Positions 9,175 to 29,544 of a stretch of DNA of 35,330 nucleotides are shown piece by piece; position 1 is the first letter of the stretch, and each line of letters opens with the position of its first letter. This DNA is from Gemmatimonadota bacterium. GTDB taxonomy: Bacteria > Gemmatimonadota > Gemmatimonadetes > Gemmatimonadales > GWC2-71-9. Location of the stretch: assembly GCA_003223415.1 (NCBI GenBank), contig QHUY01000065.1:47439-82768 (forward strand), in the 5' to 3' direction. The notes below the pieces were generated by a model. The model did no database searches. It saw only the letters and a list, made by a program, of their open reading frames with translations, and was not told where the DNA came from. Position numbers and translations under genes: made by a program.

Positions 9175-9340
9175 ACACGACTTGCCTTGACGCCCTTGTG
9201 GCGGCGGGTCAGTTTACGGGCTAGATGCAGTCCCGCAGCTCGTCGCTCGTTCTCACCAGCACCGGAATGGAGGTGACGTGGCCCCCGCACGTTTTCTGTC
9301 CGGTAGTCCACACGCATTTACGACTCTGGAGGACGATTCC

Positions 9341-12300
9341 ATGACGCATCGTGTGCGAAGCGCTTTCGGCCGATTCTGCCCGTCGTTCGTGGCCGTCGGG
9401 ATCGCCGCGCTCCTCGCGCTGGCGCCCCCCCCCCTAGCGGCGCAGCAGACGACCGGCAAGGTCGAAGGTACGGTGACGGACCAGGCCGGCGTTCCCATTG
9501 CCAACGCGCAGGTCTTCATCGCCGGGACCTCGTTCGGCGCGGTCACCAACGACAAGGGCTACTACTTCATCAACAACGTGCCGGTCGGCACGTACACGTT
9601 GCGCGCGCAGTTCATCGGCTACCAGCCGACCGAGGTGACCAACGCGCGCGTGTTCGGCGGGCAGACAGTCGAGTTCCGCATCAAGATGACGGCCTCGGCC
9701 GTGCAGGTGGGCACCATCAACGTGACCGCCGCGGCGAACCCGATCGTGCCACGCGATGAAGTGAGCTCCAAAGTCATCATCACCGGCGTCCACAATCTCC
9801 CGGTTGATGACGTGCGCAACGTGATCTCGCTGACCCCCGGCGTGGTCGAGTCCGGCGCGGGCGCCGGCTTGATCATTCGCGGCGGCCGTCCCGGCGAGGC
9901 GAATGTGTACATCGACGGCGCGCCCGTGCGTAGCGTGAACGGGCGTATCGCCGACCTGAACACCGCCTCTCAGGCGATCACCGTCGGCACCAACGCGGTC
10001 GAAGAGGCGTCGGTGACGACCGGCGCGATCGGCGTCGAGTTCGGCGACGCGCAGGCGGGCATCATCTCCTACACCACCCGCTCGGGTGGCGCGAAGCTCG
10101 CCGGCTCCCTCAACGCCGCGACGGACGAGCCGTTCGGCAACGCGGTCTCGGTCGGCTTCAACCGCTTCGAAGGCTCCATCGGCGGGCCGATCCCCAACGT
10201 CAGCAACCTGCGCTTCTTCGCCTCCGGCGTCCTCCAGGGGCAGGTGTCGGCGTTCCGCGGTACGGGGTGGGAGGACGTCCCCCGCTACGTCGTGGCCGGC
10301 GTGGACACGAGCGTAGTGGTCAACACCTCGACAACGAGCCAGACGGTCGTGATCCCGCGGTTCGCCCAGTTCACCGGCACGTGCGACGCTTCCAAGAACT
10401 TCGGCTTCGATTGCCAGGGCCGCCGCTTCCCGATGGACTGGAATTCGACGGTCCAGCTGCAAGGCAAGCTCTCCTACTCGTACGGCAGCGGCTCGAACAT
10501 CTCGCTCACGGGAATCGCGTCCGGCAACCAGTTCCGCAACCAGCCGGGCACGAACATCGGCGACCCCCAGCTGTTCAGCGGCGGCCACACCTGGGACCGC
10601 CTGGCGGTGCTCAACTGGAGCCATTCGGTCTTCAAGAGCGCCGAGCGCGAGCTGGCGATCAACGCCAACTTCAGCTGGGCGCTGGATCGGGGCATTCGCG
10701 GGCCGCTCGATCCGGCCAGCGAGCTGTCCACGCGCAGCCCCAAGATGGGCATCGAGCTGTCGACCATGAATTACGCCGGCTTCGGCAGCTTCCCGTTCCC
10801 CATCACCGATCAGATCATTCGGAACATCCGCACCAACACGGGGCTGCGCACGCCGCTGCTCAACCGCACCGACCTGCGTAACAGCCAGCCCTACCGCATG
10901 AATCCCTACGGGCTGCAGTCGGGTAGCTGGGTCACGAACGGCCTGGACGCCGGCGGCACGTTCAGCAGCGAAAAGCGCCTGACCGGCCGGGTGCAGGTGG
11001 ACTGGCAGGCCAACCGCTACCACCGGTTCAACTTCGGCGGGGAGGGCCGGCACACCACGCTGGCGTACTGGAACAGCAGCTTTATCACCCAGATCTTCAT
11101 GGACGCCTACGTCGTGCATCCCGTGACGTACGCGGCTTGGGCGGCCGACCGCCTCGATCTGGGCGACGTGGTGCTGGAGCTGGGCGCGCGCTACGACTAC
11201 ATGAACGCCAAGGCGCTGTTCTCGAACGTCCCGGGGCGGATCTTCTCGAACCCGGCTTGGCAAAACGCCGCCGCCACGAGCGACGCGGCCTACGCCCAGT
11301 CGCTCGCCGCGGTGTTCACGGGCGCCCAGACGCACCACACGATCTCGCCGCGGCTGCGGGTCTCGTTCCCGATCACGGAGTCGACCGACTTCCGGCTGTC
11401 CTACTCGCATCAGGTGCAGACCCCGGACTTCAACACCTTCTTGTCCGGCTCGAACAACGACCTGTCCTTCACGAACACCAATGACCAGTTCGGCCGGGAC
11501 ATCACCTTCGGCAAGTCGATTCAGTTCGAGTTCGGCGTGCGGCACGCCTTCAACCCCGACCTCGTGCTCGACATCGCCGCCTACAACAAGGACAAGGTCT
11601 CCGACCTGGCCTACCGGATCAAGCCGTACGACGATCCCGGCAATCCGGGCCGGACGCTCAACGTGAACGTCCTGACCAACGCGGACTTCGGTTACGCCCG
11701 CGGCCTCGACTTCAAGCTCGATCGCCGCGTGGGCAACTGGTTCAACACCTCGCTCGCCTACACCTTCCAGATCGCGCGCAACACCGGCTCGGATCCGTTC
11801 TCGTACCTGAACACCTCTTCCCGCCAGATCTCGCAGGTCACGGGCGACCGGGTGCCGCCGCCGGAGCAGCCGCTGCCGGTGGACGACCAGCGCCAGCACA
11901 ACATCGTGGGCGCGGTCTCCCTCACCATCCCGAGCGATTGGGAGAAGAACACGACGTGGGGGAAGGTGCTCAGCAACGTGAGCGTGTTCGCGACCTTGCG
12001 GGCATTCAGCGGGCTGCCCTACACCCGGGTCGCCAACTCCGGGGCCGGGTCGACCGCACCGCGGGTAGGGTTCGGCCTCGAGGCCAATTCGCTGGAGCCG
12101 ATCAACAGCTCGACGATGCCCTGGAACAAGAACCTCGACATGCGCATCAACAAGGGCTTCAAGCTCGGGCGGGCCGACGTCACGGTGTTCGCTGACCTGC
12201 GCAACGTGTTCAACTTCAAGAACATCGTTCGGATCTTCAACGAGACTGACGACGTCGTCAACGCCCTGGAGCGGCAGAGCAAGTTGAGCCCGGAGTTCTC

Positions 12301-12583
12301 GAACCTGGCGATCGAAGCCGGCTTGCAGCCGGTCAGCAAGCTGGGGTCGGACGGCTCGCTCGACCTCGCCGACTGCACGCAATGGACCGGCACTTCAGCC
12401 TCGCCGGTCGACTGCGTGATGTTGCAGCGAGCCGAGGCACGGTTCGGCAACGGCGACAAGACCTATTCGTTGGCCGAGCAGACCAAGGCACTGAACGCCT
12501 ATTACGACAATTACGTCAACGGCGTGCAGAACTTCTACGGCGCACCCCGGAATATTCGCCTGGGCTTCGAGCTGACCTTCTAG
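9341..12583 (+). CDS. TonB-dependent receptor with carboxypeptidase regulatory-like domain (Oar type)
   Basis: 1080 residues from ATG 9341, chosen because TGGAGG precedes it and a signal peptide follows directly (hydrophobic core to LAAQQ, cleavage near residue 34); a start at 9278 would put 21 residues before it. Residues ~39-110 form a CarboxypepD_reg domain (GKVEGTVTDQAGVPIANAQV). A plug domain follows (VISLTPGVVESGAGAGLIIR, NVYIDGAPV), then a long outer-membrane barrel ending in a beta-strand (NIRLGFELTF). The protein imports substrates across the outer membrane or acts as an Oar-like adhesin; the ligand is unknown. A run of ten C (9425-9434) lies in the signal-peptide end. It is followed by a hairpin and then a PorV-containing gene set on the same strand. 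Confidence 0.95.
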   Translation: MTHRVRSAFGRFCPSFVAVGIAALLALAPPPLAAQQTTGKVEGTVTDQAGVPIANAQVFIAGTSFGAVTNDKGYYFINNVPVGTYTLRAQFIGYQPTEVTNARVFGGQTVEFRIKMTASAVQVGTINVTAAANPIVPRDEVSSKVIITGVHNLPVDDVRNVISLTPGVVESGAGAGLIIRGGRPGEANVYIDGAPVRSVNGRIADLNTASQAITVGTNAVEEASVTTGAIGVEFGDAQAGIISYTTRSGGAKLAGSLNAATDEPFGNAVSVGFNRFEGSIGGPIPNVSNLRFFASGVLQGQVSAFRGTGWEDVPRYVVAGVDTSVVVNTSTTSQTVVIPRFAQFTGTCDASKNFGFDCQGRRFPMDWNSTVQLQGKLSYSYGSGSNISLTGIASGNQFRNQPGTNIGDPQLFSGGHTWDRLAVLNWSHSVFKSAERELAINANFSWALDRGIRGPLDPASELSTRSPKMGIELSTMNYAGFGSFPFPITDQIIRNIRTNTGLRTPLLNRTDLRNSQPYRMNPYGLQSGSWVTNGLDAGGTFSSEKRLTGRVQVDWQANRYHRFNFGGEGRHTTLAYWNSSFITQIFMDAYVVHPVTYAAWAADRLDLGDVVLELGARYDYMNAKALFSNVPGRIFSNPAWQNAAATSDAAYAQSLAAVFTGAQTHHTISPRLRVSFPITESTDFRLSYSHQVQTPDFNTFLSGSNNDLSFTNTNDQFGRDITFGKSIQFEFGVRHAFNPDLVLDIAAYNKDKVSDLAYRIKPYDDPGNPGRTLNVNVLTNADFGYARGLDFKLDRRVGNWFNTSLAYTFQIARNTGSDPFSYLNTSSRQISQVTGDRVPPPEQPLPVDDQRQHNIVGAVSLTIPSDWEKNTTWGKVLSNVSVFATLRAFSGLPYTRVANSGAGSTAPRVGFGLEANSLEPINSSTMPWNKNLDMRINKGFKLGRADVTVFADLRNVFNFKNIVRIFNETDDVVNALERQSKLSPEFSNLAIEAGLQPVSKLGSDGSLDLADCTQWTGTSASPVDCVMLQRAEARFGNGDKTYSLAEQTKALNAYYDNYVNGVQNFYGAPRNIRLGFELTF

Positions 12584-12651: not shown

Positions 12652-15600
12652 ATGCGTTCAACTTGGTTGATTCGCGCAGCCCGCTCGGCGGTAGCCGGGG
12701 CGCTGCTGGCGGCGACGGTCGGCGCCTCCGTGGCCACGGCCGGGCCGGCGCCGAACCGCGGAGCCAGGCGCCGCGGCGCCAATCTCTTCGCGTTGGTGTT
12801 CGGCGTCATGAACGTCAACCGCTGGTTCTGCGGCATCAACAACATCGGCGAGCTGTGCGTGGACCCGACCAACTCGCCCGTGGTCGGCGGCGGCTTCTGG
12901 CCCAAGGGCACGCCCGACCAGTACATCTTCAACTCCGGCCTGCAGCTGGCCGGCACGATTCCGTCCACCGCCGCGTTCGCCTGGGCGGGGGACACGGTCG
13001 GCGCCTTCTTCATGGACCCGCGCGGCGACCAGTCCGCGGGCGACCCGGTGACTCTCGTCTACAACTCGCTCGACGCTGGGGACGCCGCCAGCTGGCCGAA
13101 CGGCGGCATCGTGCGGGACACCGCGATCTACGCCAGCGTGCTGCAGGGCCGCCAGAGCGTGTCGCAGGAGGACCTCTGGGTGCGGACCTGGGAGGGCAAT
13201 CCGTCCTTCCTGGCGGGGCGCACCCACCCGATGGGGATCCTCGTCGAAGAGCGCGGCATGGCGTGGAACTTCCCGACGGGCAACGAAGACATCATCTACT
13301 TCGTCTTCAAGTTTACGAACGTGACCGCCAAGGATCCGTTGGTCTACCAAAACCCGACCAACGACCCGGCCATCTGGTCGGAGCTGGCCGCCATCGGCGC
13401 CGACTTCCAGGCCCGCAACGAGGCGCGCTTCAACGTCAACATCCCCGACGGCGGCTACCCCTTCACCAACCTGTTCGCCGCCTTCTTCGCGGACGAGGAC
13501 GTGGGCGACGCCAGCAAGAACTACTCCACCGCCGTCATCCCGTTCGACATGATGGTGGCCTACAAGTCGGACTTCCTGGAGAAGAACTGGACGTTCCCGC
13601 CAGACATCTTCGGGCCGCCGTTCGTCGCGTCGCCCGGGTTCGTGGGCCTCAAATTCTTGAAGTCCCCGGTCGGCCTCACGATCTTCTCCAACACGCTGAA
13701 CGCGGCCACCGGCTACCCCGATCCAGTGGGCGTGAAGCAGCTGTATCGCTACCTGTCCGGCACGTCCAATCCGGCGGCGGGCGACTTCCCCTGCACGTTC
13801 CAAGGTCAGCAGCTGCAGAAGCACTTCTGTTTCCAGGCGCAGAACTTCGCCGACACGCGGTCCTTCCAGTCCTCCGGCCCGTTCACCCTTAACCCCGGTG
13901 AAACGAAGACCATCGTCGAGGCCTACATCCAGGCCGCGCCGACCGCGCTGCCGGCCGGCGCCGTCGGTGGTGACGTTAAGCCGGGAATTCCGGTCACGGG
14001 GGACTCCATCTTCAAGAACCCCGGCGCCGTGCGGCCGATCGAGCGCGCGATGGGGTGGGTCACCCAGGCCGACGACGGGAAGGGTGCGGAGAACGGGGAC
14101 GGCATCATCGAGCAGGACGAAGTGCGGTCGGTGCCGCGCTCGCTGCTCGACAAGGCGCTGGTCGCGCAAGCGGTCTTCGCCAACAAGTTCCTGCTGCCGT
14201 TCGCCCCCGATGCGCCCCCGTTCTTCCTGATCCCGGGCGACAACAAGGTGACGGTGGTGTGGCAGAAGAGTAAGACGGAGACGACCGGCGATCCGTTCTT
14301 CGCGGTCGCTTCCGATGCGACCTCGCCGCTGTACGATCCGAACTTCCGGCAGTTCGACGTCGAGGGCTACCGCATCTACCGCGGCCGAACGACGAGCGCC
14401 CTGTCGCTGGTGGCGCAGTTCGACTACGCCGGCACGAGCATTACGGACTTCACCGGCGGCTTCGCCTACACCACGGACTTGAACGGCAACGGCAAGAGCG
14501 AGTGCGCCCCCGAATTGGGCGTGTTCGACGATTGCCCGGTGCGCTTCCAGACGGCGCAGCCGTTTATCAATAGCGTGGACCACGACATCTCCGGTAACCT
14601 GATCCAGATCCCCGCCGGCGGCCGGGTCCCGCTCGCCGACGGCAGCGTCCTGATCATCAAGGCGGACACCGCGGTCACGGGCGAGAAGTCGGGCTACCCG
14701 GCCCTGAGCAACAGCGGCGTCAACTTCGCCTATGTAGACCTCGGGGTGCGGAACTCGTTCGCCTATTACTATGCAGTCACCGCGTTCGACGTGAACTCCC
14801 TGAAATCGGGGCCGAGCTCGCTCGAGTCGCCCCGGATCACCAAGCTGGTCACGCCGCGGGCGCCGTCGGCCCAGGTGGTCAGTGGCGCGTTGGCGCCGCT
14901 GCAGCTCCTCGGCCAGGACAACGCGGTACTCAATCCCAACGCGCCGCTGCCGACGCTCGACGCGGCCACCGGCGAGTTCTCCGGGCCGATGCCGCCGACC
15001 AACGGCATCGCCCTTGGGCTGGCGGCGTTCCTGCCGGAGGTGCTGGACACCGGGACCCTGCTGCTCACCATCAACAGCGTGTCACCCGGCGCGACGCTCG
15101 ACGCGCGCTCGGTGACTTACTCGATCTCGTTCGGTTCGCAGACGTTCAGCGTGCCGATCGCGCAGGATGCGTTCAGCGGTGAGGTGCCCGGGTCGGTGGG
15201 ATTCTCCGCCTTGAACGCCGTCCAGAAGAAGGCGGTGGTCTTCGGCGGCGACTCGACGTTCCCGATCTACGGGAGCGCGACCATGACCTTGCCTGGCGGC
15301 TACCGCGTGGCCTCGTGGGGCCGTGGCGACATCAATGGCGATCCCTCCAACTCGGTGCAGGCAGGCCCGCGCTGGTGGGCGGGCGCCGCCAACGAGAACA
15401 CGCCGAAGCCGAACGAGCTCGTGTGCACGCCGGCCTCCGGTGGGTGCGTCCAGAAGGACCTGAGCCGCAACGCCGGGGCACTGCCTGGTGTGACCACCAT
15501 CTTCCATCTGCAGTCCTACGCCACGGTGCCCAACGCGCCGATGCGCAACCTGGAAGGCATTGGGGCCGGCCTCGCGCGGGCGGCGGACTTCCAGGTGTTC

Positions 15601-16470
15601 TGGGGTGCCGCCGGCAAGATCGACTCGGTGCACGACGTGACCCACCACGTCACCGTGCCGTTCAGCAGTTCGATGGGGACGTCGTGGGGACTCATCACCG
15701 ACCAGTCCTTTGTGGCTCCGTTCGGTGGCACCCCCCCGGACGGCAGTAATACACTCCTCACGTGGACCGACGCGTTCTGCGTCGCTCCGGCGCGCGCGTT
15801 CCTGGCTCACTGCGGCAGCGGGCCGAGCGCCGCGATGAAGAACACCGCGACCCTTGGCGATGTGGCTGCAACGGCTTCCGGCGTTTCCGGAGATGGCCTC
15901 AGTGGAGCGGCGGCGCTGGCCAAGACCGGCACCGGGTTCATCTTTTACCTCAACGGGCACTTCTTCCTGATGCAGATGACGGCGCTGCCCGCGGCGGGCA
16001 CCGTGTGGAACGCGCGCTTCTTCGCAGGTGCCATCACCGGCACCGGCGCCGACGGCGACTATACGTTCGTGCCCGCGATCCGGCCGCCGGCAGTGCCGGG
16101 CCTGCGTATCCAGGCGAAGTTCACGGGCACGACCGTGGATCCCAGCAAGACCACGGAGGCAGCCCTGGCCAAGGTCCACACCGTGCCGGATCCCTACTAC
16201 GTGACCGACGCGCTCGAGGCGACGGCGAACACGAAGGTGCTGAAGTTCGTCAACCTCCCCGCGCAAGCCATCATCCGCATCTACTCGGTGAGCGGGGTGC
16301 TGGTGCAGGTGCTCTCGCACAACGATGCCAGCGGGGGCGGGGAGGCGCTCTGGAACCTCCGGAACCGGAACAACCAGTTCGTGGCCTCCGGCGTGTACTT
16401 CTGGCACGTCGAAACGCCGGACGGCAAAACCAAGGTCGGGCGCTTCACCGTCGTCAACTTCGCGCCGTGA
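12652..16470 (+). CDS. Large secreted protein with fibronectin-like region and T9SS/FlgD-like C-terminal domain
   Basis: 1272 residues. An N-terminal signal peptide ends near residue 30 (SVATAGPAP). The body is extracellular in character: Gly/Asn/Asp/Thr-rich, with few lysines. A fibronectin-III-like block lies near 525-590 (NKVTVVWQK, VEGYRIYRGR). The last ~90 residues (TVPDPYYVTD, VNLPAQAIIRIYSVSGVLVQ, NNQFVASGVYFWHVET, KVGRFTVVNF) have the strand order of type-A T9SS sorting domains and FlgD-like Ig domains. Immediate downstream coupling to a PorV/PorQ-like gene (11 bases) fits a T9SS cargo, but the sorting call is by pattern only. No catalytic motif was recognised. Confidence 0.88.
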   Translation: MRSTWLIRAARSAVAGALLAATVGASVATAGPAPNRGARRRGANLFALVFGVMNVNRWFCGINNIGELCVDPTNSPVVGGGFWPKGTPDQYIFNSGLQLAGTIPSTAAFAWAGDTVGAFFMDPRGDQSAGDPVTLVYNSLDAGDAASWPNGGIVRDTAIYASVLQGRQSVSQEDLWVRTWEGNPSFLAGRTHPMGILVEERGMAWNFPTGNEDIIYFVFKFTNVTAKDPLVYQNPTNDPAIWSELAAIGADFQARNEARFNVNIPDGGYPFTNLFAAFFADEDVGDASKNYSTAVIPFDMMVAYKSDFLEKNWTFPPDIFGPPFVASPGFVGLKFLKSPVGLTIFSNTLNAATGYPDPVGVKQLYRYLSGTSNPAAGDFPCTFQGQQLQKHFCFQAQNFADTRSFQSSGPFTLNPGETKTIVEAYIQAAPTALPAGAVGGDVKPGIPVTGDSIFKNPGAVRPIERAMGWVTQADDGKGAENGDGIIEQDEVRSVPRSLLDKALVAQAVFANKFLLPFAPDAPPFFLIPGDNKVTVVWQKSKTETTGDPFFAVASDATSPLYDPNFRQFDVEGYRIYRGRTTSALSLVAQFDYAGTSITDFTGGFAYTTDLNGNGKSECAPELGVFDDCPVRFQTAQPFINSVDHDISGNLIQIPAGGRVPLADGSVLIIKADTAVTGEKSGYPALSNSGVNFAYVDLGVRNSFAYYYAVTAFDVNSLKSGPSSLESPRITKLVTPRAPSAQVVSGALAPLQLLGQDNAVLNPNAPLPTLDAATGEFSGPMPPTNGIALGLAAFLPEVLDTGTLLLTINSVSPGATLDARSVTYSISFGSQTFSVPIAQDAFSGEVPGSVGFSALNAVQKKAVVFGGDSTFPIYGSATMTLPGGYRVASWGRGDINGDPSNSVQAGPRWWAGAANENTPKPNELVCTPASGGCVQKDLSRNAGALPGVTTIFHLQSYATVPNAPMRNLEGIGAGLARAADFQVFWGAAGKIDSVHDVTHHVTVPFSSSMGTSWGLITDQSFVAPFGGTPPDGSNTLLTWTDAFCVAPARAFLAHCGSGPSAAMKNTATLGDVAATASGVSGDGLSGAAALAKTGTGFIFYLNGHFFLMQMTALPAAGTVWNARFFAGAITGTGADGDYTFVPAIRPPAVPGLRIQAKFTGTTVDPSKTTEAALAKVHTVPDPYYVTDALEATANTKVLKFVNLPAQAIIRIYSVSGVLVQVLSHNDASGGGEALWNLRNRNNQFVASGVYFWHVETPDGKTKVGRFTVVNFAP

Positions 16471-16481
16471 GGAACACCACC

Positions 16482-17609
16482 ATGACGATTCGACGCTCGC
16501 GCGTGCTCGGCACGCTCATGGGCCTGACGGCGCTGGCGTTCGCGCCGGCGACCGCCCAGGTCCAGCAAGACAACACGGGCTTCGGCACCAGCTCCGGGGA
16601 GTTCCTGCTCCTCGGTGCCGGCGCCCGCGGCGCGGCCCTTGGCGGCGCGTTCGCCGCCCTGACGACCGACGTCACCGCCCTCTACTACAACCCCGCCGGC
16701 CTCAGTCAGATGGCCCGCCCCGGCATCATGGTATCCACCTACAGCTACGTGGCCTCCACGCGCTATACGTGGCTCGGATTCGCCCTGCCAATGTCGGGGG
16801 GATCGCGGGCAATCGGCGTTTCCGGCGGCAGCTTCGGCTTCAGTGACCAGCCGGTGTACTCGCTCGAGAACCCGGACGGCACGGGGGAGAGCTACTCGGT
16901 GGCCGAGACGTTCCTGTCGGCCACCTATAGCCAAAACTTCTCCGATCGCTTCTCGGCCGGCTTCTCGGCCAAGCTGATCTCGGACGCTCTCGGGGCGACG
17001 AAGGCCACCGGGTTCGCGGTCGATTTCGGGACCAACTTCCACGCGATGCTGGGGGAGCGGCCGATCCGCGCGGCCTTCGTGATCGCCAACCTGGGCACGA
17101 ACCTGCGGGCCGACGGCTCAGGCCTGGAGGCGGGGGTGCCGCGGACGCCGCCCCTGGGGACCGTCGACATCCCCCAGGAGAAGCAGCCCGCTCGGCTGCG
17201 GGCGTCGGGTTGGGGCCTGCCGGTGTTCTTCCGCGTTGGCGTCTCCCTCGACGTGGTCGCCCGGGGCCAAAACCGGCTGACGCTGCTGTCGGAGTTCAGC
17301 CAGCCGAGCAACAACAAACCGACTGCGGGCGCGGGGCTGGAGTATGCGATGACGAATCTGGGGAACAGCGGCTTCTCGCTGGCCGCCCGGGGGAGCTACA
17401 CCGCCCAGCCGGCCAACACCCTCGATCCGGGCGCGGCTGCCGGCTTCACGTCGAAGTACAATGCGTCCAGCTTCACCTCCGACGGCCTGGCGGTCGGCGG
17501 CGGGATCGGGTACGGCCGCGGCGATTGGAAGATCGGCTTCGACTATGCGTACCGCAACCTCGGTCCGCTGGGCGGGACGAACTTTCTGAGCTTCAGCCTC
17601 GGCTGGTAG
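16482..17609 (+). CDS. PorV/PorQ family outer-membrane barrel protein
   Basis: 375 residues. A signal peptide (to TAQVQQ) precedes the diagnostic start EFLLLGAGARGAALGGAFAA, then DVTALYYNPAGLSQMA, shared by PorV, PorQ and UPF0164 proteins. Alternating barrel strands continue to a terminal aromatic residue (FLSFSLGW), as in outer-membrane barrels. PorV carries T9SS cargo from the SprA translocon to the cell-surface attachment complex in Bacteroidota. Here it lies directly downstream of a putative cargo gene, with SprA 12 kb further on. PorV and PorQ cannot be separated by eye. AGGA precedes the ATG at 16482. Confidence 0.92.
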   Translation: MTIRRSRVLGTLMGLTALAFAPATAQVQQDNTGFGTSSGEFLLLGAGARGAALGGAFAALTTDVTALYYNPAGLSQMARPGIMVSTYSYVASTRYTWLGFALPMSGGSRAIGVSGGSFGFSDQPVYSLENPDGTGESYSVAETFLSATYSQNFSDRFSAGFSAKLISDALGATKATGFAVDFGTNFHAMLGERPIRAAFVIANLGTNLRADGSGLEAGVPRTPPLGTVDIPQEKQPARLRASGWGLPVFFRVGVSLDVVARGQNRLTLLSEFSQPSNNKPTAGAGLEYAMTNLGNSGFSLAARGSYTAQPANTLDPGAAAGFTSKYNASSFTSDGLAVGGGIGYGRGDWKIGFDYAYRNLGPLGGTNFLSFSLGW

Positions 17610-17625: not shown

Positions 17626-19017
17626 GTGAAGGGACTGACGTTGATGGCCCTGGCACTCATCATCGGCGGGAGTCTGAGTGCCAGGCCCCAGTCCCGCGAC
17701 GAGGCGACGCTCGGGCTGAGCGCGGTGCGTTACTATCGAGCCACGCCCGCGGCCGTGCAGACACTCGTCGACGTGTTCTGTCGGGTGCCGCTCACCCTGG
17801 TGAGCCCGTTGGGGGGGGAGGGAAGCGGGGCGGCGTTCCGGGTCGCCGTGGCGGTGCGGGATTCCAACGGCCTGACGCTCACCACCCCGTCTTGGTCCGC
17901 GGCGGTGCCGGCCGCGATGCTCCGGGTGCGTGGCGCCTCGACTGCCGGGCACCTGTCGTTCGTGGTCAAGCCGGGCCGCTACACCGTCGCGGTGACGGTG
18001 ACCGACTCGGCCACCGGGCGGGTGGCGCACCAGCAGACGGCGGTGCAAGCGTTCACCGGCGCGCCCGGGGGGTCGGACCTGCTGCTGGGCACGGACATCC
18101 GGGCGATGACCGGTCCGGCTGATTCGGCGCTGCGGGACGGGGAGCTGCGCAAGGGCGCGCTGGTCATCCAGACCTCCGGCGACCCGGTGCTGACGCCGCA
18201 GAGCGCCAAGCTGGGCTATTACTTGGAGCTCTACCCGGCGCAGGCGGAGAGCGCGACGGTCGTGGTCCGGGTGCTGAAGGCGACCGGCGAGCCGGTGATC
18301 GCAACACCGCCGCAGCGCGTCGCGGTGGCCGCCGGCGGTGGCGTGACCCAGGGGCTGGTGGACTTGGCGGGGCTGCCGGCCGGCCGCTACGTGCTCGAGG
18401 TGAAAGCCGCAGGGGCCGATTCCGCCGTGACGCGTACGGCCCCGTTCGGGATGACCGGTTTCGAGACGATGGCGACGGCCCAGACTGTGGCGTCGTCGGG
18501 CGAGGACCTGTTCTCGCGGATGTCCGAAACCCAGCTGGACACGCTGTACATGCCGTTGGTCTACCTGATGACGTCGGAGGAGCAGGGCGTCTTTTCGACG
18601 TTGTCGCTGGAGGGCAAGCGGACCTGGCTGCGGCAGTTCTGGGCCAAGCGCGATCCGACGCCGGGGACGACGCGCAACGAGGAACGCGAGGGGTTCTACC
18701 AGCGGATCGCCGAGGCCAACCGGCGCTACCGCGAAGGCGGTTCGTCGGCGGTGCCGGGATGGCGCACCGATCGCGGCCGGATCTTCATCAAGTACGGCCC
18801 GCCCGACGAGGTGCTGGAGCGGCACCAGTCGGCGAGCAGCCCGCCCTACGAGGTGTGGAAGTACACGCGGGTGCGGGCGCTGAAATACGTGTTCTTGGAT
18901 TTGACGCGGTTCGGCAATTACGCGTTGATCTATACCGACGACCGGCGGGAGCCAAGCCGGCCGAACTGGGAGGAGCTCCTGGGCACCGAGGCGGTGCAGG
19001 ATGTGCAGCGCTTCTGA
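17626..19017 (+). CDS. GWxTD domain-containing protein
   Basis: 463 residues from GTG 17626. A signal peptide (LMALALIIGGSLSARPQ) targets it to the envelope. The C-terminal GWxTD domain shows VPGWRTDRGRIFIKYGPPDE near residues 376-395, preceded by FWAKRDPTPGTTRNEERE and followed by VWKYTR. This domain is frequent in Acidobacteriota and related phyla and has no established function. The middle region has beta-rich Ig-like stretches (GRYTVAVTVTDSATG, GRYVLEVKAAG). It follows the PorV/PorQ-like gene by 16 bases and is probably translated from the same transcript, so it may help assemble or anchor surface proteins; this is inference. Confidence 0.93.
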   Translation: MKGLTLMALALIIGGSLSARPQSRDEATLGLSAVRYYRATPAAVQTLVDVFCRVPLTLVSPLGGEGSGAAFRVAVAVRDSNGLTLTTPSWSAAVPAAMLRVRGASTAGHLSFVVKPGRYTVAVTVTDSATGRVAHQQTAVQAFTGAPGGSDLLLGTDIRAMTGPADSALRDGELRKGALVIQTSGDPVLTPQSAKLGYYLELYPAQAESATVVVRVLKATGEPVIATPPQRVAVAAGGGVTQGLVDLAGLPAGRYVLEVKAAGADSAVTRTAPFGMTGFETMATAQTVASSGEDLFSRMSETQLDTLYMPLVYLMTSEEQGVFSTLSLEGKRTWLRQFWAKRDPTPGTTRNEEREGFYQRIAEANRRYREGGSSAVPGWRTDRGRIFIKYGPPDEVLERHQSASSPPYEVWKYTRVRALKYVFLDLTRFGNYALIYTDDRREPSRPNWEELLGTEAVQDVQRF

Positions 19018-19050: not shown

Positions 19051-21015
19051 ATGACTCGACGTTTCTTCGGACTGCAAGGCGCGCTTCTCGGGGTGCTGCT
19101 CTTCGGCTCGTGCAAGGAAGATTCGATCACGACCGTCGGCATCGGCACCGCGGCCAGAGTGTCACTGGAGTTCAATGCCCGCACCGTCGCGGTGGCGGAC
19201 TCGGTAAGGACGTTCGCGCGGGTCTTGGACAAGGTCGGCAACCCGCTCGCGATCACGGTCACCTTGACCACGGGGTGCACCGCCGGGATCGTGTCCGTCG
19301 CGCCCGCCTCGGATGCCCCGCTGGTGCGCACGGCCTTCGTCGTGAAGGCGGTGGGCTTCGGGAGCGGGTGCGTGATCGCTTCGGCCTCAGGGTTCGTCGA
19401 CACGCTGCAGGTCACGACCGTGCCGGCGGCCCTCGTGGTGACCGGGGTGACCGGCGTGACCGCGCCCGATACGGCGAACTCGGGGTCCGTCGTGACCTAC
19501 TCGTATGCGTATCATGACGCGGCGGGGAATGTCATGACCGGCCTCCCCGCGTCGACCACGCCGTCGCTCAGCTCGGCGGACGAGACGATCGCCGAGCCGG
19601 CAGCCTCCGGCACCTCGGTCAGCGCGCGCGCACCAGGCATCGTGACACTCACGTTGAGCGGGACGGGGGGGGTCAAGACGACCAAGACGCTCGCAGTGCT
19701 GGCGGTCCCCTTCACCGGCACCACCTCGGGTCCGGTCATGCCGGGGCAGTTCCTCACGATCCAGCGTGACCCGGCGGGACCGGTGTTCGACACGATCAAT
19801 ATGACGGTGAGCATCGGCACGGTTCGCAAGAGCACGTTCACGCCCGACGCCTTCCAGGTCCGGATCTCCGATCTGGCTCGCGCCGGCACGAAGAGTTTTT
19901 CGCTGACCGCTGTCGGCCCGAACGACGTCGCGTACACAGGTGGGTCGTACACGGTGAGCGCCCCTGCGGCCTTCGCCGGAACTTTTGCGCCCACGCCGAT
20001 CTCGCCTACGCAGCGGGTCAAGGTCACGCGCAATCCGGCTGACCCGGCGTTCGACAGCACGACGAACCTGTACTTCCGGGGCAGGACGGACTCGACCCTG
20101 GCAGCGGTGACGCCCATCTCGGACACGGCGACCAAGACGACTATTACGCCGGACTCGTTCAAACTGACGACCGCCGATCTCGACGCCGGCGGCACCTACC
20201 TCGTCCAGACCACCCGCCTTGGCACGAACCTCCTGGCGTGGCGCGGCAGCTACACGCTGGCGGTCGGCACGTGGGGAGGCACGCTGACCCCGAGCGCCGG
20301 CGGCCCCATGGACAAGATCATTCTCCGCAAGAGTGCCGGCGACCCGCAGTTCACCGATACCACCCGTGTGTACGTGGGCGGCGCCCGGGCAATCGTCGAG
20401 TCGCACTCGACGGATACCGCGGTCGTCATCAGCCCGTGGTTCAGCTCGACGGCCGCGAAGGACATGCGGATCAGCCGGATGGCTGGGACGCTGGCGGTCG
20501 ACGGGTCCAAAGTCTTCACGCCCACCTCGACGGCGGTGCTGGACGTGTACGATCACACGGACGACACGCCGGACAAGCCGGTACCGATCACGGCGAACGG
20601 GAGCTACTACCGGATGATGTCCGGCGCCTGTGCAGCGAATGCGGACGGCGTTGGGCAGGCGTCAAGTGGGAGCGACGACTGCGACGACTACGTCACCATC
20701 ACGAACACCAGCGCAACCCTTACTGATACCGTGACCGTGAACGCGAACTGGTTCACCGCTGGCGATATCGACTTCTACAGATGCGATGCCAGTGCACTGT
20801 CGAATCCCGCACCGAACAACGTGCCGTCGTGCGGAACGTTCGCGGGATTCGACGATCTGCTCAGCACGGCAGGGGCGGTGGGTGGATCGGGTACCCCCGA
20901 GAAAGCGACGTTCGTCATGGCGCCGGGCAAGACGTATCTGCTCTGGTTCAACATGTTCGACGCGCACGGTGTCACCGCCACCGTATACCAGATCAAGGTG
21001 GGCGGTCTGAAGTGA
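19051..21015 (+). CDS. Lipoprotein with three tandem Ig/IPT-like repeats and PPC-like C-terminus
   Basis: 654 residues. The signal ends in a lipobox-like LLFGSC, so Cys21 may be lipidated. After an Ig-like N-terminal region, three tandem repeats of ~85-100 residues begin near 221 (FTGTTSGPVMPGQ), 308 (FAGTFAPTPISPTQ) and 408 (WGGTLTPSAGGPMD). Each carries an RDPAGPVFD/RNPADPAFD/KSAGDPQFT block. From ~500 a different domain has DIDFYRCD and GKTYLLWFNMFDAHGVTATV, resembling the pre-peptidase C-terminal (PPC) jelly-roll seen on secreted proteins. It is the last gene of the receptor-PorV-GWxTD set, 33 bases after the GWxTD gene, and ends before a strong hairpin. Function not recognised. Confidence 0.85.
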   Translation: MTRRFFGLQGALLGVLLFGSCKEDSITTVGIGTAARVSLEFNARTVAVADSVRTFARVLDKVGNPLAITVTLTTGCTAGIVSVAPASDAPLVRTAFVVKAVGFGSGCVIASASGFVDTLQVTTVPAALVVTGVTGVTAPDTANSGSVVTYSYAYHDAAGNVMTGLPASTTPSLSSADETIAEPAASGTSVSARAPGIVTLTLSGTGGVKTTKTLAVLAVPFTGTTSGPVMPGQFLTIQRDPAGPVFDTINMTVSIGTVRKSTFTPDAFQVRISDLARAGTKSFSLTAVGPNDVAYTGGSYTVSAPAAFAGTFAPTPISPTQRVKVTRNPADPAFDSTTNLYFRGRTDSTLAAVTPISDTATKTTITPDSFKLTTADLDAGGTYLVQTTRLGTNLLAWRGSYTLAVGTWGGTLTPSAGGPMDKIILRKSAGDPQFTDTTRVYVGGARAIVESHSTDTAVVISPWFSSTAAKDMRISRMAGTLAVDGSKVFTPTSTAVLDVYDHTDDTPDKPVPITANGSYYRMMSGACAANADGVGQASSGSDDCDDYVTITNTSATLTDTVTVNANWFTAGDIDFYRCDASALSNPAPNNVPSCGTFAGFDDLLSTAGAVGGSGTPEKATFVMAPGKTYLLWFNMFDAHGVTATVYQIKVGGLK

Positions 21016-22114: not shown

Positions 22115-23461
22115 ATGGCCAAATCCGCACCTCCGCCGCCGCCACCTGCCACGGTCGACCCCTGGGGTGACCGGCTGCCGCGCCGGCTGGGCCTGTGGAG
22201 CGCGGTGGCGGTACTCGTGGGCTCGACGATCGGCAGCGGCATCTTCCGCACGCCGGCGATCATCGCCGCGCGCGTCCCCCAGCCCCTCCCCATGCTGGGG
22301 GTATGGGTGCTCGGCGGCGGGCTGGCTCTGTGCGGCGCGCTCACCTACGCGGAGCTGGCCGCGCTGTTCCCGCGCTCGGGCGGGGTCTTCGTCTACATCC
22401 GCGAAGGGTTCGGGCGGCTGCCCGCCTTCCTCTTCGGCTGGACCGAGCTGGTGCTGATTCGCGCGTCGGCGCTGGGCGCGATCGCCACGCCGTTCGCGGA
22501 GTATCTCCTCCGCTCGCTCGGGTACGACCCGCAGCTGCCGCAGTACGCCGGGATGGTGCACTACGTCGCCGCCGCGGCGATCGCGCTCACGGCCACGCTC
22601 AACTATGTCGGCGTGCGGTGGAGCGCCATCGTGCTCAACCTGACGACCGGCGCGAAGTACGGCGCGCTCGTGCTGCTCGTTCATTTCGGCGCGGCCGCCG
22701 GTGGGGGAACACTCTCCGCCGGGCTGTTCGGCCTCGCGCTCGTCTCGGTCCTGTGGGCGTATGACGGCTGGGGGGACCTCTCGTTCGTGGGCGGCGAGGT
22801 GCGGGACCCCGAGCGCAACTTGCCGCGCGCGCTCATCGCCGGGACGTGCGCGATCATCGCGATCTACTTGTCGGTCAATGCGGCCTATCTGTATCTCCTG
22901 CCGATCGCGCAGATCGCGCACTCGCCGCTCGTCGCCGCCGACGCGGCGCAGCTGCTGGTGGGGCGCTTGGGCGTGGGGATCATCGCGGTGGTCGTGATGG
23001 TCGCGACGTTCAGCACGCTGCTCGGGTCGATGCTCACGGCGCCGCGCATCTTCTTCGCCATGGCCGACGACGGCCTGTTCTTCACGAGCGTTGCCCGCGT
23101 GCACCCCCGGTTCCATACCCCGTCGGTGTCCATCGTGCTCACCGCCGCCCTCGGCGTGGCCTTCGTGCTGGCCCGCACCTTCGAGCAGCTGGCCGACCAG
23201 TTCGTGGTCGCCATCTTTCCCTTCTATGCCCTGGCCGCAGCGGCGGTGTTCGTGCTGCGCCGGCGGCGCCCCGACCTCCCTCGCCCGGTGCGCGTGCTCG
23301 GCTATCCGGTGGTGCCGCTTCTCTTCGTGCTGGCCTCTTTATTGATTCTCGGGAATGCGCTGCGCGAGCACCCGGCGGCGACGGGTCTGGCCTTCGCGGG
23401 AATCCTGGTGGGCATCCCCGTGTTCTTTCTCTGGACTAGGGTGGCGCCGCGGCTTCCTTGA
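22115..23461 (+). CDS. APC-family amino acid permease
   Basis: 448 residues with about 12 membrane segments. The first segment holds GSTIGSGIFRTPAII, the substrate and ion binding loop of the APC (LAT/YfnA-like) superfamily, and TYAELAALFPRSGGVFVYIR follows as the classic helix-3 motif. The later region includes FSTLLGSMLTAPRIFFAMAD. It should be an inner-membrane amino acid transporter; substrate unknown. A TATATT box at 22099-22104 lies only ten bases before the ATG, so the mRNA may have almost no leader. The gene ends 80 bases before the second TonB-dependent receptor; a shared transcript is possible but not evident. Confidence 0.93.
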   Translation: MAKSAPPPPPPATVDPWGDRLPRRLGLWSAVAVLVGSTIGSGIFRTPAIIAARVPQPLPMLGVWVLGGGLALCGALTYAELAALFPRSGGVFVYIREGFGRLPAFLFGWTELVLIRASALGAIATPFAEYLLRSLGYDPQLPQYAGMVHYVAAAAIALTATLNYVGVRWSAIVLNLTTGAKYGALVLLVHFGAAAGGGTLSAGLFGLALVSVLWAYDGWGDLSFVGGEVRDPERNLPRALIAGTCAIIAIYLSVNAAYLYLLPIAQIAHSPLVAADAAQLLVGRLGVGIIAVVVMVATFSTLLGSMLTAPRIFFAMADDGLFFTSVARVHPRFHTPSVSIVLTAALGVAFVLARTFEQLADQFVVAIFPFYALAAAAVFVLRRRRPDLPRPVRVLGYPVVPLLFVLASLLILGNALREHPAATGLAFAGILVGIPVFFLWTRVAPRLP

Positions 23462-23541
23462 CGGCTCCGGCAGCACGGAACACATTTCCTTCGCCCTTGG
23501 CTCGCTCCCTTCGCAATCGCACGCTCTCCGGAGATTCCTCT

Positions 23542-26500
23542 ATGAACCGCTACATCTGGTCGGTTGGTTTGCTCTTGGCGGTGGCTCCTTTCGGTAATCT
23601 GGGCACGGCAGCCGCGCAGGGTGTCACGACGGCGGCGGTCACGGGACGCATCAGCGATGAGTCGGGCGCCCCTGTGGCCCTCGCCGAGGTGCTGCTCATC
23701 AATGCGTCCACCGGCGAGCGGCACTCGGTGCGTGCCCGGGATGACGGCACCTACAGCTTCGAGCACACGTCAGTCGGCGGCCCGTACAGCCTGACGGCGC
23801 GGGCGCTGGGCTTCGAGCCCAAGACCTCCACGGCCTTCAGCGTAGCGCTGGGGCAGCGCTTCGTTCTCGACCTGGCCCTGAAGCGGGCGGCGGTCCAGGT
23901 GTCCGGTATCACCGTGAGCGCCGAATCCGATCCGCTCACGTCCCCGTCCCGCACCGGCGCGTCGACGTTCCTCTCCGACCGCGCCATCCACCGCCTGCCG
24001 ACGCTGAACCGCTCGTTCACCGACTTCATGAGCACCGCGCCCCAGATCGTGGGTCGGTCCGTGGCGGGGCAGAACGATCGGTTCAACAACATCCAAATCG
24101 ACGGCGGGTCGAACAACGACATCTTCAATCTCGGCTCGACCAACGGCACCCCCGGCGGCAGCATGAACGCGCGGCCCCTCAATATCGAGGCGGTCAAGGA
24201 GTACCAGATCCAGATCGCGCCGTTCGACGTGCGGCAGGGCGGGTTCGTCGGTGGCCTCGTCAACGCGGTGACGAAATCGGGGGAAAACGTGTTTCACGGC
24301 TCCGCCTTCGGATACTTCCAGAACCAGAGATATGTCGGCAGGGACACCGCCGGCATCAAGGCCCCGGTGGCGAAGTACGACCAGGAGCAGTATGGGTTCT
24401 CGATCGGCGGACCGATCATCCAGGACCGCCTGCACTTCTTCGCCTCCGGCGACTTCCGGCACGATGCCCGGCCGTTCGCGTCCAGCGTCCAGCTCGGCTC
24501 CAGCGGCGACACGACGGGTGTCGGGATCACGGCAGCGCGCTTCGACTCCGTCCGGAACATCTTGAAGACCACGTACGGATTCGACCCCGGCGGGTTTGAT
24601 GCGCCTACCATCCCGAATCCAGAAACGAATCTATTCGGCAAGCTGAGCTACGAGCTGGGCACGAACAGCCACGTGGAGGTGTCGGGTACCTACGTCAACG
24701 CGGATCGTGTGGTTCTGGGTCACTCCTACCGGACGAACTACACGTCCAGCTCCTCGAACCTGCGGGACGGGTACATCCTGTCCAACAGCGGCTACGACTT
24801 CACGGATCACACGCGGACGGTGCGCGGGAAGTGGACCGCGCTGATCGCCAACCGCTACTCCAACGAGATGATTCTCGGCTACAGCACGATCAGTGACGTG
24901 CGCGCCCTCCCCAATCGCGTCCCGCTGATCCTCGTGTCAGGCAACTCCACGGGCAGCTACGTGGCCGCCGGGGCGGAGCGGTTCTCCCAGGCGAACACGC
25001 TGGACCAGAGGGTGATTGAATTCACCGACAACGTCACCTTCACCCGCGGCCAACACCAGCTCACGGTCGGGACCCACAACGAGTTCTTCCATTTCCGGAA
25101 TGTGTTCTTCCCGGCCTCCATCGGCATCTGGAATTTCGCCAGCCCGGACTCGCTCCGTCTCGGTCTGCCCAACCAGTTTTTCCGGGCCCTGCCGACCACG
25201 CAGCGGCCCGATGGGCCGATCGCGGACTTCAGCGTGAAGCAGTTCGGTTTCTACGCCGAAGACCGATTCTCACCGGCGCACAACCTGACGCTCACCACCG
25301 GTCTGCGGCTCGACATCCCCTACCAGCCCTCCCCGACGTTCAACCCCACGCTCGACACGATCGCCTTCCCGGCGCTCGGCGGGAAAGGGGTCAACACCGG
25401 CTCGTTCCCGAGCGGCAACATCCTGTGGTCCCCGCGGCTCGGCTTCAATTACGACGTCACCGGGGATCGTCAGACCGTTGTGCGCGGCGGGGTGGGGATC
25501 TTCAGCGGCCGGCCACCGTACGTGTGGCTATCGAACGCCTACGGCAACACCGGCCAGGAGCAGCAGACCATCTACTGCAACACCGGTGCGACCGTGCCGG
25601 TGTTCACTATGGACCCGAACAACCAGCCGACCAGCTGCCTCTCCGGCGCCCCGTCCGCGGGGCGGCCGAGCGTCGTGTACTTCGACAGCGATTTCAAGTT
25701 TCCGCAGGCCTTGAAGGTCGCGATCGGGGCGGACCAACAGCTCGGCTGGGGCGTGCTCGGCACGATCGACTTCCTGTACACCAAGTCGATCAACCAGTTT
25801 TTCCTGCAGGACGTCAATCTCGTCGGACTCCAGGGGTCTTCTGCCGGGGAGTCCGGCCGGCCCCTATATGGCACAATCCCTGCGGTTATCGCCACCGCGA
25901 CTCCCGTGGTCACAGCGCGCGTGACGGGCACGTACGCCGACGTCATCCGCAATTCGAACCGGAGCGGTGACCGGTCCACCTCGCTCACCGTCCAGGTACA
26001 GAAGCGCTTTGGAGAGGGAATCGAGTTCTCAGCGAGCTACACCTACACGCACGTACTCGACCTACGGTCGTTCACCTCCGATATCACCAGCTCCAATTAC
26101 GTGTTCGGCGTGTTGGACGGCACCGTCACCTCGCCCAACCTGCGGACGTCATCCTTCGACCGGCCGCACAAGGTGACCCTGAGCGGCACAGTGGACGCGC
26201 CGTTGGACACGCGCTTCTCGCTGACCTACAACGGCCTCTCGGGCACCCCCTTCACGTACGTGGTGAACGGCGACATCAACGCCGACGGGTTCAGCGGCAA
26301 TGACGCCGTCTATGTGCCGCGCAGTGCCACCGACATTTCGGGCCTGTCGGCAGCGCAGTTCGCCACGCTCGACGCCTACATCAACGGCGAGCCGTGCTTG
26401 CGGGAGAACCGCGGCCGCATCCTCCCGCGTAACAGCTGCCGCAACCCCTGGCAGAACATCTTTAACGCGCGGCTGAGCAAGGTCGTCCCCACGATCGGCG

Positions 26501-26748
26501 GCCAGTCAGTGGAGATCACGGCCGACATGCTGAACGTGTTGAACTTCCTCGACAGCCGCTGGGGCCTTATCCGCGTGAGCGGCCAGAACGAGGAGACGAA
26601 CCTGCTCCGGTTGGTGGGCTACGACGCCGTGAACCAACGCGGCATCTACGCCAACAACATTCTCAATGGAGCCCCGAAGAACCAGGTGACCCTCAACGCC
26701 CTCGGTTCGCGCTGGGTGTTCCAGCTCGGCGCCCGGTACACCTTCTAG
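23542..26748 (+). CDS. TonB-dependent receptor / Oar-like protein with carboxypeptidase regulatory-like domain
   Basis: 1068 residues from ATG 23542; the signal peptide ends AAAQGV near residue 26. Residues ~30-115 form a CarboxypepD_reg domain (TGRISDESGAPVALAEVLLI). The plug has LPTLNRSFTDFMSTAPQI, IQIDGGSNNDIFNLG and the Oar-type block IAPFDVRQGGFVGGLVNAVT. The rest is a large outer-membrane barrel ending in LGARYTF, the typical aromatic C-terminus. Oar proteins of Myxococcus act in adhesion or development, others import sugars or peptides; the ligand here is unknown. It is not a close copy of the receptor at 9341. Its stop TAG (26746-26748) is directly followed by the long palindrome. Confidence 0.95.
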   Translation: MNRYIWSVGLLLAVAPFGNLGTAAAQGVTTAAVTGRISDESGAPVALAEVLLINASTGERHSVRARDDGTYSFEHTSVGGPYSLTARALGFEPKTSTAFSVALGQRFVLDLALKRAAVQVSGITVSAESDPLTSPSRTGASTFLSDRAIHRLPTLNRSFTDFMSTAPQIVGRSVAGQNDRFNNIQIDGGSNNDIFNLGSTNGTPGGSMNARPLNIEAVKEYQIQIAPFDVRQGGFVGGLVNAVTKSGENVFHGSAFGYFQNQRYVGRDTAGIKAPVAKYDQEQYGFSIGGPIIQDRLHFFASGDFRHDARPFASSVQLGSSGDTTGVGITAARFDSVRNILKTTYGFDPGGFDAPTIPNPETNLFGKLSYELGTNSHVEVSGTYVNADRVVLGHSYRTNYTSSSSNLRDGYILSNSGYDFTDHTRTVRGKWTALIANRYSNEMILGYSTISDVRALPNRVPLILVSGNSTGSYVAAGAERFSQANTLDQRVIEFTDNVTFTRGQHQLTVGTHNEFFHFRNVFFPASIGIWNFASPDSLRLGLPNQFFRALPTTQRPDGPIADFSVKQFGFYAEDRFSPAHNLTLTTGLRLDIPYQPSPTFNPTLDTIAFPALGGKGVNTGSFPSGNILWSPRLGFNYDVTGDRQTVVRGGVGIFSGRPPYVWLSNAYGNTGQEQQTIYCNTGATVPVFTMDPNNQPTSCLSGAPSAGRPSVVYFDSDFKFPQALKVAIGADQQLGWGVLGTIDFLYTKSINQFFLQDVNLVGLQGSSAGESGRPLYGTIPAVIATATPVVTARVTGTYADVIRNSNRSGDRSTSLTVQVQKRFGEGIEFSASYTYTHVLDLRSFTSDITSSNYVFGVLDGTVTSPNLRTSSFDRPHKVTLSGTVDAPLDTRFSLTYNGLSGTPFTYVVNGDINADGFSGNDAVYVPRSATDISGLSAAQFATLDAYINGEPCLRENRGRILPRNSCRNPWQNIFNARLSKVVPTIGGQSVEITADMLNVLNFLDSRWGLIRVSGQNEETNLLRLVGYDAVNQRGIYANNILNGAPKNQVTLNALGSRWVFQLGARYTF

Positions 26749-26905: not shown

Positions 26906-28012
26906 TCAAGTCCGCGTCCGCTTCAGCAGCCAGGCGGCCCCGGCACCGAACAACAGGTTGGGAAACCACGCGGCCAGCATGGGTGGCAGCACGCCGCCCG
27001 CACCCACCGCTTTGGCCAGCTGGAACATGAGCAGCGCCACGAACGTGGTGGCCAGGCTCACGCCCACGCCCCAGGCGGGACCGCTGCTGGGCGTGCTCAC
27101 CGCCAGGGGCGCACCGAACAGCGCCACGACGATGCAGATGAACGGGATCGCGATCTTGAGCGCCCGCTCCACCGCCAGCTTGCGCGTGTCCGAGCCGCTG
27201 CGGGCCAGCGCGTCGATGTAGCGCCCCAACTCGGCGTAGCGCATCGCGTCCGGCGGCGTGGGCTCGGCCAGCAGGCCCTGGGGCGTTTCCTGCAGCGTCG
27301 CCCGCGTGCGCAGCACGTCGAAGCTGAACGCGAGCTCCTGCTCCGGGCCCAGCAGGTAGCGCAGCGTGCCGCGCTGGAGGGACCAGTGCCCTCCTCCCCG
27401 CCTGGTGCCACGCTTCGCCCCGGCGGTTTCGTAGAGGGCCCGCTGCGCGGCGATCACCATGGTCGGATAGTCCACCCCCGTCCCTTCGCGCTCCAGAATC
27501 AGGTCGGTCATGGTGCGCGTGGCGATCTGCAGCGCGGCGATCGCGTACACCCAGCCGCCGTCGGCTCGGTAGACGAAGTTGTAGCGCGACGACGTGGACC
27601 GGATCTGTTTCTCGCCGAGCAGCTCCTCCTTCCGGCTCGAAGACACCGGGGTGACCTCGCCGAGCAGCACCCCCCCCAGGAACGCCGCGACGGCGATCAC
27701 GTACAGCGGGCGCACCAGGCGATGGAACGACACGCCCGAGGCCTTCGCCGCGGTGATCTCCGAGTGCCGGCCCAGCGAGCCCACGATGAACACGGTCGCG
27801 AACAGCACGGCCGCCGGCAGCACCAGGAACATGATCTCGGGCACGGCGAACAGGTACGCCAACGCGACGGTGCCTTTCGACATGCCCCGCCCGAGGTAGC
27901 GGTCCAGCTTGTCGGTAAAGTCGATGACGATGACCAGGACGGGAAAGCCGATCATCACCACGAGGAACACCTTGGCCCATTCGCGCAGCACGTACCGGTC
28001 GAGGGTCCTCAT
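26906..28012 (-). CDS. lptG: LptF/LptG (YjgP/YjgQ) family permease, LptG-like
   Basis: 368 residues. The start is ATG at 28012, overlapping the stop of the upstream gene as ATGA. The opening MRTLDRYVLREWAKVFLVVM, then segments YLFAVPEIMFLVLPAAVLFA and GRHSEITAAKASGVSFHRLV, are hallmarks of the LptF/LptG inner-membrane permeases that move lipopolysaccharide from the inner membrane with LptB. A periplasmic beta-jellyroll region lies in the middle and six membrane helices flank it. It forms an operon with the longer lptF-like gene. Which of the two is LptF or LptG in this phylum is uncertain; the name follows gene order. The stop codon lies next to the long palindrome. Confidence 0.9.
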   Translation of the reverse strand: MRTLDRYVLREWAKVFLVVMIGFPVLVIVIDFTDKLDRYLGRGMSKGTVALAYLFAVPEIMFLVLPAAVLFATVFIVGSLGRHSEITAAKASGVSFHRLVRPLYVIAVAAFLGGVLLGEVTPVSSSRKEELLGEKQIRSTSSRYNFVYRADGGWVYAIAALQIATRTMTDLILEREGTGVDYPTMVIAAQRALYETAGAKRGTRRGGGHWSLQRGTLRYLLGPEQELAFSFDVLRTRATLQETPQGLLAEPTPPDAMRYAELGRYIDALARSGSDTRKLAVERALKIAIPFICIVVALFGAPLAVSTPSSGPAWGVGVSLATTFVALLMFQLAKAVGAGGVLPPMLAAWFPNLLFGAGAAWLLKRTRT

Positions 28013-29502: not shown

Positions 29503-29515
29503 GGTCGGTCGCGCC

Positions 29516-29544
29516 ATTATATTCGGCCCTCCACGTCTCTACAA
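29516..29544 (-). promoter_or_regulatory. Promoter upstream of lptF
   Basis: On the minus strand TTGTAG (29544-29539), a 17-base spacer and a perfect TATAAT (29521-29516) form a housekeeping-type promoter. Transcription would start near 29509, leaving a leader of only about seven bases before GTG 29502. Confidence 0.7.

Follow-up and report, generated by a model that had tools for sequence, protein, structure and literature searches.

Two adjacent genes in a 35,330-nucleotide stretch of DNA from a bacterium of the phylum Gemmatimonadota probably encode a cargo protein of the type IX secretion system (T9SS) and a dedicated outer-membrane carrier for it, which would work together with the SprA translocon encoded further along the same contig. 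In this reading, to which we give a probability of about 0.68, the cargo is handed over privately to its own carrier, keeps its C-terminal sorting domain (CTD) uncleaved and is displayed at the surface anchored on the carrier barrel. The stretch, hereafter the window, forms the last part of contig QHUY01000065.1, whose final base, 82,768, corresponds to window position 35330. The contig belongs to a metagenome-assembled genome (MAG) with a draft size of 3.53 Mb and 97.5% completeness, and the host is described as a soil bacterium. Two comparison sets were used: 61 genomes, made up of the window genome (G000) and its 60 closest relatives, and 394 genomes sampled over Gemmatimonadota. The features at the centre of the argument are the following.

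12652..16470, + strand: putative T9SS cargo of 1272 amino acids, with a signal peptide-like start at about residues 1-30
16228..16467, + strand: C-terminal sorting domain, type A-like, a predicted seven-strand sandwich closest to the CTDs of PorZ and PorU
16482..17609, + strand: outer-membrane barrel of the PorV/PorQ family, 375 amino acids, proposed private carrier of the cargo (NF033709, match to PorV in the PDB, paired trees)
about 29611..35330, + strand: SprA/Sov, the T9SS outer-membrane translocon, truncated by the contig end (TIGR04189, PDB 6h3i_A)

The N-terminus of the cargo resembles a Sec-type signal peptide, and the protein as a whole gave no Pfam match at E 0.1 and no PDB sequence match at E 1. 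Its end, which the original prediction had taken for a domain with the strand pattern of type A sorting domains, bears that description out. The last 80 residues, scanned alone, score 25.9 bits against TIGR04183 (cut-off 23), and 25.8 bits in a six-frame search of the genome. In an alignment of 12 CTDs, named A2, TIGR04183 is matched by all 12 and the PorZ model, the PorU model and CHU_C by 11, while the FlgD_ig model is matched, weakly, by six and the type B model TIGR04131, also weakly, by just two. The first row of A2 has a single M in place of the residues that precede DPSK, a position upstream of the conserved part. When the A2 profile was compared with all PDB sequences, PorZ came first (E 2.3e-4), followed by PorU (0.024), the RemZ CTD from a translocon structure (0.35) and FlgD (0.39). 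A single-sequence AlphaFold2 model of the CTD has seven strands and a predicted local distance difference test score (pLDDT) of 70; Foldseek searches with this model place PorZ (5m11) first, at E 1.3e-4, and FlgD third, with the CTDs of RemZ, PorU and RgpB within the top 34. By profile and predicted fold, then, the domain matches T9SS type A sorting domains better than FlgD. The CTDs of PorZ and PorU are not cleaved (PMC11285876). In Porphyromonas gingivalis a conserved glycine in the loop between strands 3 and 4 is required for secretion (PMC11285876), and the invariant glycine of the motif IYSxSG(V/I)LV appears to be its counterpart, a correspondence judged by eye.

The CTD model has 35 matches at E 6.4e-6 or better in the 61 genomes. 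Apart from orthologues of the window cargo, present in 22 of the 60 relatives (a few of these being CTD-only matches), the domain is found on further proteins, about 1400 residues long, that lack a Pfam match. Four genomes (G042, G046, G048 and G038) have it on subtilases and four more (G000, at C22, G010, G023 and G011) on M14 zinc carboxypeptidases; the match of G000:C22 is not independent, since its CTD is part of A2. Because one and the same tail sits on unrelated secreted proteins, it reads as a sorting signal. Two CTD proteins were found in the window genome; the second is the M14 zinc carboxypeptidase (L234:7922-10111), which has no adjoining PorV gene.

The open reading frame (ORF) of the barrel starts with the ATG at 16482, 11 bases past the stop codon of the cargo gene, as had been predicted along with its PorV/PorQ-like nature. 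The protein reaches 125.9 bits against PorV_fam (NF033709, cut-off 90) and matches PorV in the PDB (6h3i_F, E 5e-4). It falls under the respective cut-offs of the PorV, PorQ and PorV2 equivalog models, with an E value of 6e-10 for the first of these. A single-sequence structure model of the barrel was uninformative (pLDDT 30).

This pairing of CTD and barrel genes recurs. In 26 of the 35 CTD matches a PorV-family gene begins at most 500 bp downstream on the same strand, a count that ignores phylogeny. The number of such adjacencies expected by chance is far below one, because a genome of some 3.3 Mb has about two PorV-family genes. Three classes of pairs can be told apart, namely the window type (class 1), a second large-protein type (class 2) and a subtilase type (class 3). 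For barrels and CTDs alike, identity is 20-27% between members of different classes and 46-64% between members of one class. In the barrel tree the classes form separate groups with high support; the CTD tree recovers these groups as well, with weaker support inside class 2. CTD and barrel distances, compared pair by pair, correlate at 0.95 overall and at 0.70 inside class 1, and for the latter value none of 5000 permutations gave one as high. One genome, G042, carries all three classes. In the window genome a class 3-like barrel (C209) has no adjoining CTD gene and the M14 cargo (C22) no adjoining barrel, and these two may be a split pair. The same genome holds a further PorV-family gene (L235:1786-2835, G000:C123) to which no CTD is linked. 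Relatives of this gene occur in many genomes that have SprA, and its product may be a general carrier. At a class 2 locus (L233:7585-8286) the PorV-family gene is followed by one for an outer-membrane barrel of about 230 residues, with a weak match to PorG (17.3 bits, E 0.003).

The translocon itself is identified with a wide margin over its cut-off. SprA of the window scores 485.7 bits against TIGR04189 (cut-off 200) and matches PDB 6h3i_A at E 4e-30; its start codon, picked by the signal peptide, lies at about 29611, roughly 12 kb downstream of the cargo and barrel genes, the distance at which a SprA homologue had been reported. Among named genomes, Gemmatimonadota MAGs have the closest sequences, whose identity reaches about 70%, whereas identity to Bacteroidota SprA is about 22%; the sole SprA in the plasmid collection is in a Parabacteroides record. 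SprA occurs in 279 of the 394 sampled Gemmatimonadota genomes. Among genomes at least 90% complete, PorV_fam is found above its cut-off in 29 of 32 with SprA and in 1 of 12 without (Fisher 5e-7), and the CTD in 16 of 32 with SprA and in none of 12 without (Fisher 0.0016), both values ignoring phylogeny. Genomes of family f2 (such as G039, G043, G045, G047, G051 and G060) carry SprA and a PorV-family gene but no CTD that the CTD model recognises convincingly, and their SprA scores above that of the window on the Bacteroidota model.

The genes around the cargo, barrel and sprA are as follows.

9278..12583, + strand: RagA/SusC-like TonB-dependent receptor with CarboxypepD_reg and plug domains (TIGR04056, PF13715, PF13620, PF07715)
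17626..19017, + strand: GWxTD-domain protein, member of the cargo gene cluster (TIGR04514, 102 bits; PF20094; synteny)
19051..21015, + strand: lipoprotein-like protein at the cluster end, weakly conserved, with an N-terminus containing LLFGSCKED
23458..26748, + strand: second TonB-type barrel with CarboxypepD_reg and OMP_b-brl_4 domains, in the conserved interval before SprA (profiles, synteny)
28009..29517, - strand: LptF/LptG-type permease, divergent from sprA (TIGR04407, 207 bits)

An amino acid permease gene is listed between the lipoprotein-like protein and the second barrel. These genes agree with the TonB receptor, GWxTD and lipoprotein genes that had been named as neighbours. The description of the T9SS parts as spread among these genes was only partly right, since the neighbourhood is a conserved one, with the order M24, TonB receptor, cargo, PorV and GWxTD, followed at a distance by LptF/LptG and SprA. 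The receptor gene directly upstream of the cargo gene keeps its place in relatives, and an LptF/LptG-type permease lies upstream of sprA in all 56 loci with room for it. In seven of the eight genomes with sufficiently long contigs (G000, G003, G006, G014, G034, G040 and G046) a window-type cargo and SprA share a single contig, roughly 12-22 kb apart; G050 has the sole long contig without this linkage. Gene order, CTD and spacing are kept in relatives whose proteins share 40-55% identity, which argues that the arrangement of the pair is not due to chance.

Several observations weigh against reading the pair as T9SS cargo and carrier. Scanned as a whole, the 1272-residue protein scores only 20.7 bits on TIGR04183, just under the cut-off of 23, and FlgD-like immunoglobulin (Ig) domains have the same fold as the CTD. 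Nine of the 35 CTD matches, among them the M14 cases examined, have no adjacent PorV gene, and many SprA-bearing genomes of the Gemmatimonadaceae type yield no convincing match to the CTD model. The agreement of CTD and barrel distances is partly due to common descent, as is the co-occurrence of SprA, PorV and CTD. Finally, the searches found none of the motor and sortase genes without which the system fails in Bacteroidota; parts of it may be lacking here, or SprA may have a different use.

This last point bears on an explanation that we regard as possible but would not favour, in which the window lineage has a conventional T9SS, working by the standard mechanism, whose GldL, GldM, GldK, GldN and processing enzyme have diverged too far for Bacteroidota profiles. 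With SprA itself so distant from its Bacteroidota counterparts, smaller components could escape detection; moreover, the searches did not extend to GldK (of the same ring as GldN), SprE, PorT and PorE and were made without a Bacteroidota positive-control genome, so the negatives for GldL, GldM and GldN mean not recognised rather than proof of absence. Within these limits, GldM was not found above its cut-off in the 61 genomes (in 59 of them not even at E 1), nor at E 0.001 in the 394. GldL was found above its cut-off in none of the 61, sub-threshold matches being mostly parts of long ORFs, and GldN in none of the 61 at E 0.1. A C25 peptidase of the PorU type (PF01364) is lacking from the window genome and from 60 of the 61, with one stray partial match in the remaining genome. 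As a rough yardstick, a motor conserved like the barrel should have been seen, because the single-component PorV equivalog model alone still detects the barrel. A complete T9SS like that of Bacteroidota is not shown by these sequences; what stands of the originally proposed coupling is a cargo and carrier beside SprA, and for this the support is good. Two outcomes, taken together, had been named as speaking against that proposal: the lack of PorKLMN and PorU homologues was borne out as far as was searched (GldK and PorT being outside the search), whereas a CTD matching FlgD-like profiles only was not, T9SS CTDs being the better match.

In another reading the barrel is a FadL-type transporter and the CTD just a FlgD-like Ig domain; with the TonB receptor they would make up a cluster for uptake or envelope functions, to which SprA is unrelated. 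This would fit with the weak FlgD_ig matches in half of the A2 CTDs, with FlgD as third hit in the fold search and with the failure to find a motor or sortase. We consider it improbable, since T9SS profiles and structures match better, the barrel exceeds the PorV_fam cut-off, the CTD and PorV classes diverge in parallel, peptidase cargo carries the same tail, and PorV and CTD are nearly limited to SprA-bearing genomes. Closer to the cargo and carrier reading, and compatible with it, is a TonB uptake locus in which the CTD protein replaces a SusD-like lid and SprA export serves solely that purpose. A TonB receptor gene does lie directly upstream of the cargo gene in class 1 and class 2 loci, but subtilase-type pairs have no adjacent TonB gene, no SusD domain was detected and no substrate is known, and we think this rather unlikely as the whole explanation. 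Even less credible is a role of the type IV pilus machinery (pilB, pilT, pilC), encoded next to sprA in relatives, as the power source of SprA export or as its mechanical partner. PilB follows sprA in 41 of 45 loci with room, an arrangement conserved over several families, but this may be due simply to an ancient gene neighbourhood to which lptF/lptG belong as well. All 61 genomes have PilB-type ATPases regardless of SprA, and two SprA loci (G033 and G053) have no adjacent pilB; on these grounds the coupling was rejected.

If the two genes are indeed a T9SS-type cargo and its carrier, the cargo would be made with a Sec signal peptide and enter the periplasm, and its CTD would be threaded through SprA to the lateral gate. 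There the cargo's own PorV/PorQ-family barrel, rather than one general PorV, would catch the CTD, and the two would exit as a carrier-cargo complex. Since no PorU sortase can be recognised, the CTD probably stays uncleaved, and the cargo would then remain on the surface in lasting display, bound non-covalently to the barrel. A role alongside the TonB receptor is suggested by the conserved receptor gene just upstream: the cargo may serve or cap this receptor and so contribute to nutrient capture, although no SusD-like domain was detected in it.

Compared with known systems, the locus combines features of several. With the type A T9SS of Flavobacterium johnsoniae and P. gingivalis it shares SprA, a PorV-family barrel, a predicted seven-stranded CTD of the TIGR04183 type, a Sec signal peptide and peptidase cargo. 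Those Bacteroidota, however, use one PorV for all cargo and have GldL, GldM, GldN and a PorU-type peptidase, whereas the window lineage has putatively private carriers encoded beside the cargo and few CTD proteins per genome, and none of these four components is recognisable in the window genome. Type A cargo in Bacteroidota needs PorV, while the gene for type B cargo is commonly followed at once by one of the PorP/SprF-like kind (PMC12618676), whose barrel is thought to anchor it (PMC9143113). The downstream shuttle gene, the several paralogous pairs per genome and the expected anchoring of uncleaved cargo on a barrel are common to type B pairs and the window lineage; however, the window CTD is type A-like and its barrel belongs to the PorV/PorQ family, not to PorP/SprF. 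Judged by sequence, it is a type B pairing arrangement built of type A-like parts. The closest CTDs are those of PorZ and PorU, T9SS components that retain this domain, by profile and by PDB sequence and, for PorZ only, by fold, while the remainder of the cargo has no detectable relation to them. SusCD/RagAB uptake loci likewise have a TonB receptor gene immediately upstream of the gene for a large surface protein, but here a T9SS CTD and a signal peptide replace the lipoprotein signal, and a SusD/RagB domain was not detected.

The window ends before the position at which relatives carry further genes. Directly downstream of sprA, in 55 of 66 loci (among L099-L176), there is a glutaminyl cyclase gene of Bacteroidota type (for example L053:8217-9122; PF04389; PDB 6qro, E 9e-62), and in 31 of the 55 there is a four-base overlap between the nearest start codon of the cyclase gene and the stop of sprA. 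In relatives such as L053 and L065, comEA, pilB, pilT and pilC follow sprA and the cyclase in conserved synteny. Several envelope proteins, including those starting at 9278, 16482, 23458 and 29611 in the window and others at related loci, have glutamine directly after the likely signal peptidase site. A rough scan for signal peptides, in which false positives are certain to occur, gives glutamine at position +1 in 22-26% against a background of 3-4%, which suggests a partial Q-rule in Gemmatimonadota. In Bacteroidetes, T9SS and N-terminal glutamine coincide, and pyroglutamate has been argued not to control T9SS (PMC5837995).

T9SS has been described as found only in Bacteroidetes (Abby et al., 2016; PMC4793230), and Gemmatimonadetes have since been listed as a possible holder (PMC11285876). 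Our literature search on Gemmatimonadota and T9SS found no dedicated study, T9SS outside Bacteroidota being mentioned only in passing. We tentatively suggest, as a conjecture that may well prove wrong, that most Gemmatimonadota run a stripped-down T9SS made of SprA and private pairs of CTD proteins and PorV-family barrels, without the GldLM-GldKN energy chain or PorU. Each cargo would be displayed on its own barrel, export would draw its energy from some new mechanism or from nothing more than folding and binding, and the product of sprA would usually be co-produced with a glutaminyl cyclase capping the N-termini of envelope proteins. Ejection of carrier-cargo complexes from SprA is held to depend, in Bacteroidota, on the GldLM/PorLM motor. 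The release step there requires energy (PMC12635249, PMC10994853). If the suggestion is true, a phylum with SprA, carriers and CTDs in which no motor can be recognised would amount to a natural experiment on the purpose of that motor and the origin of the system, and its private type A-like pairs would offer a direct test of how a CTD picks its carrier.

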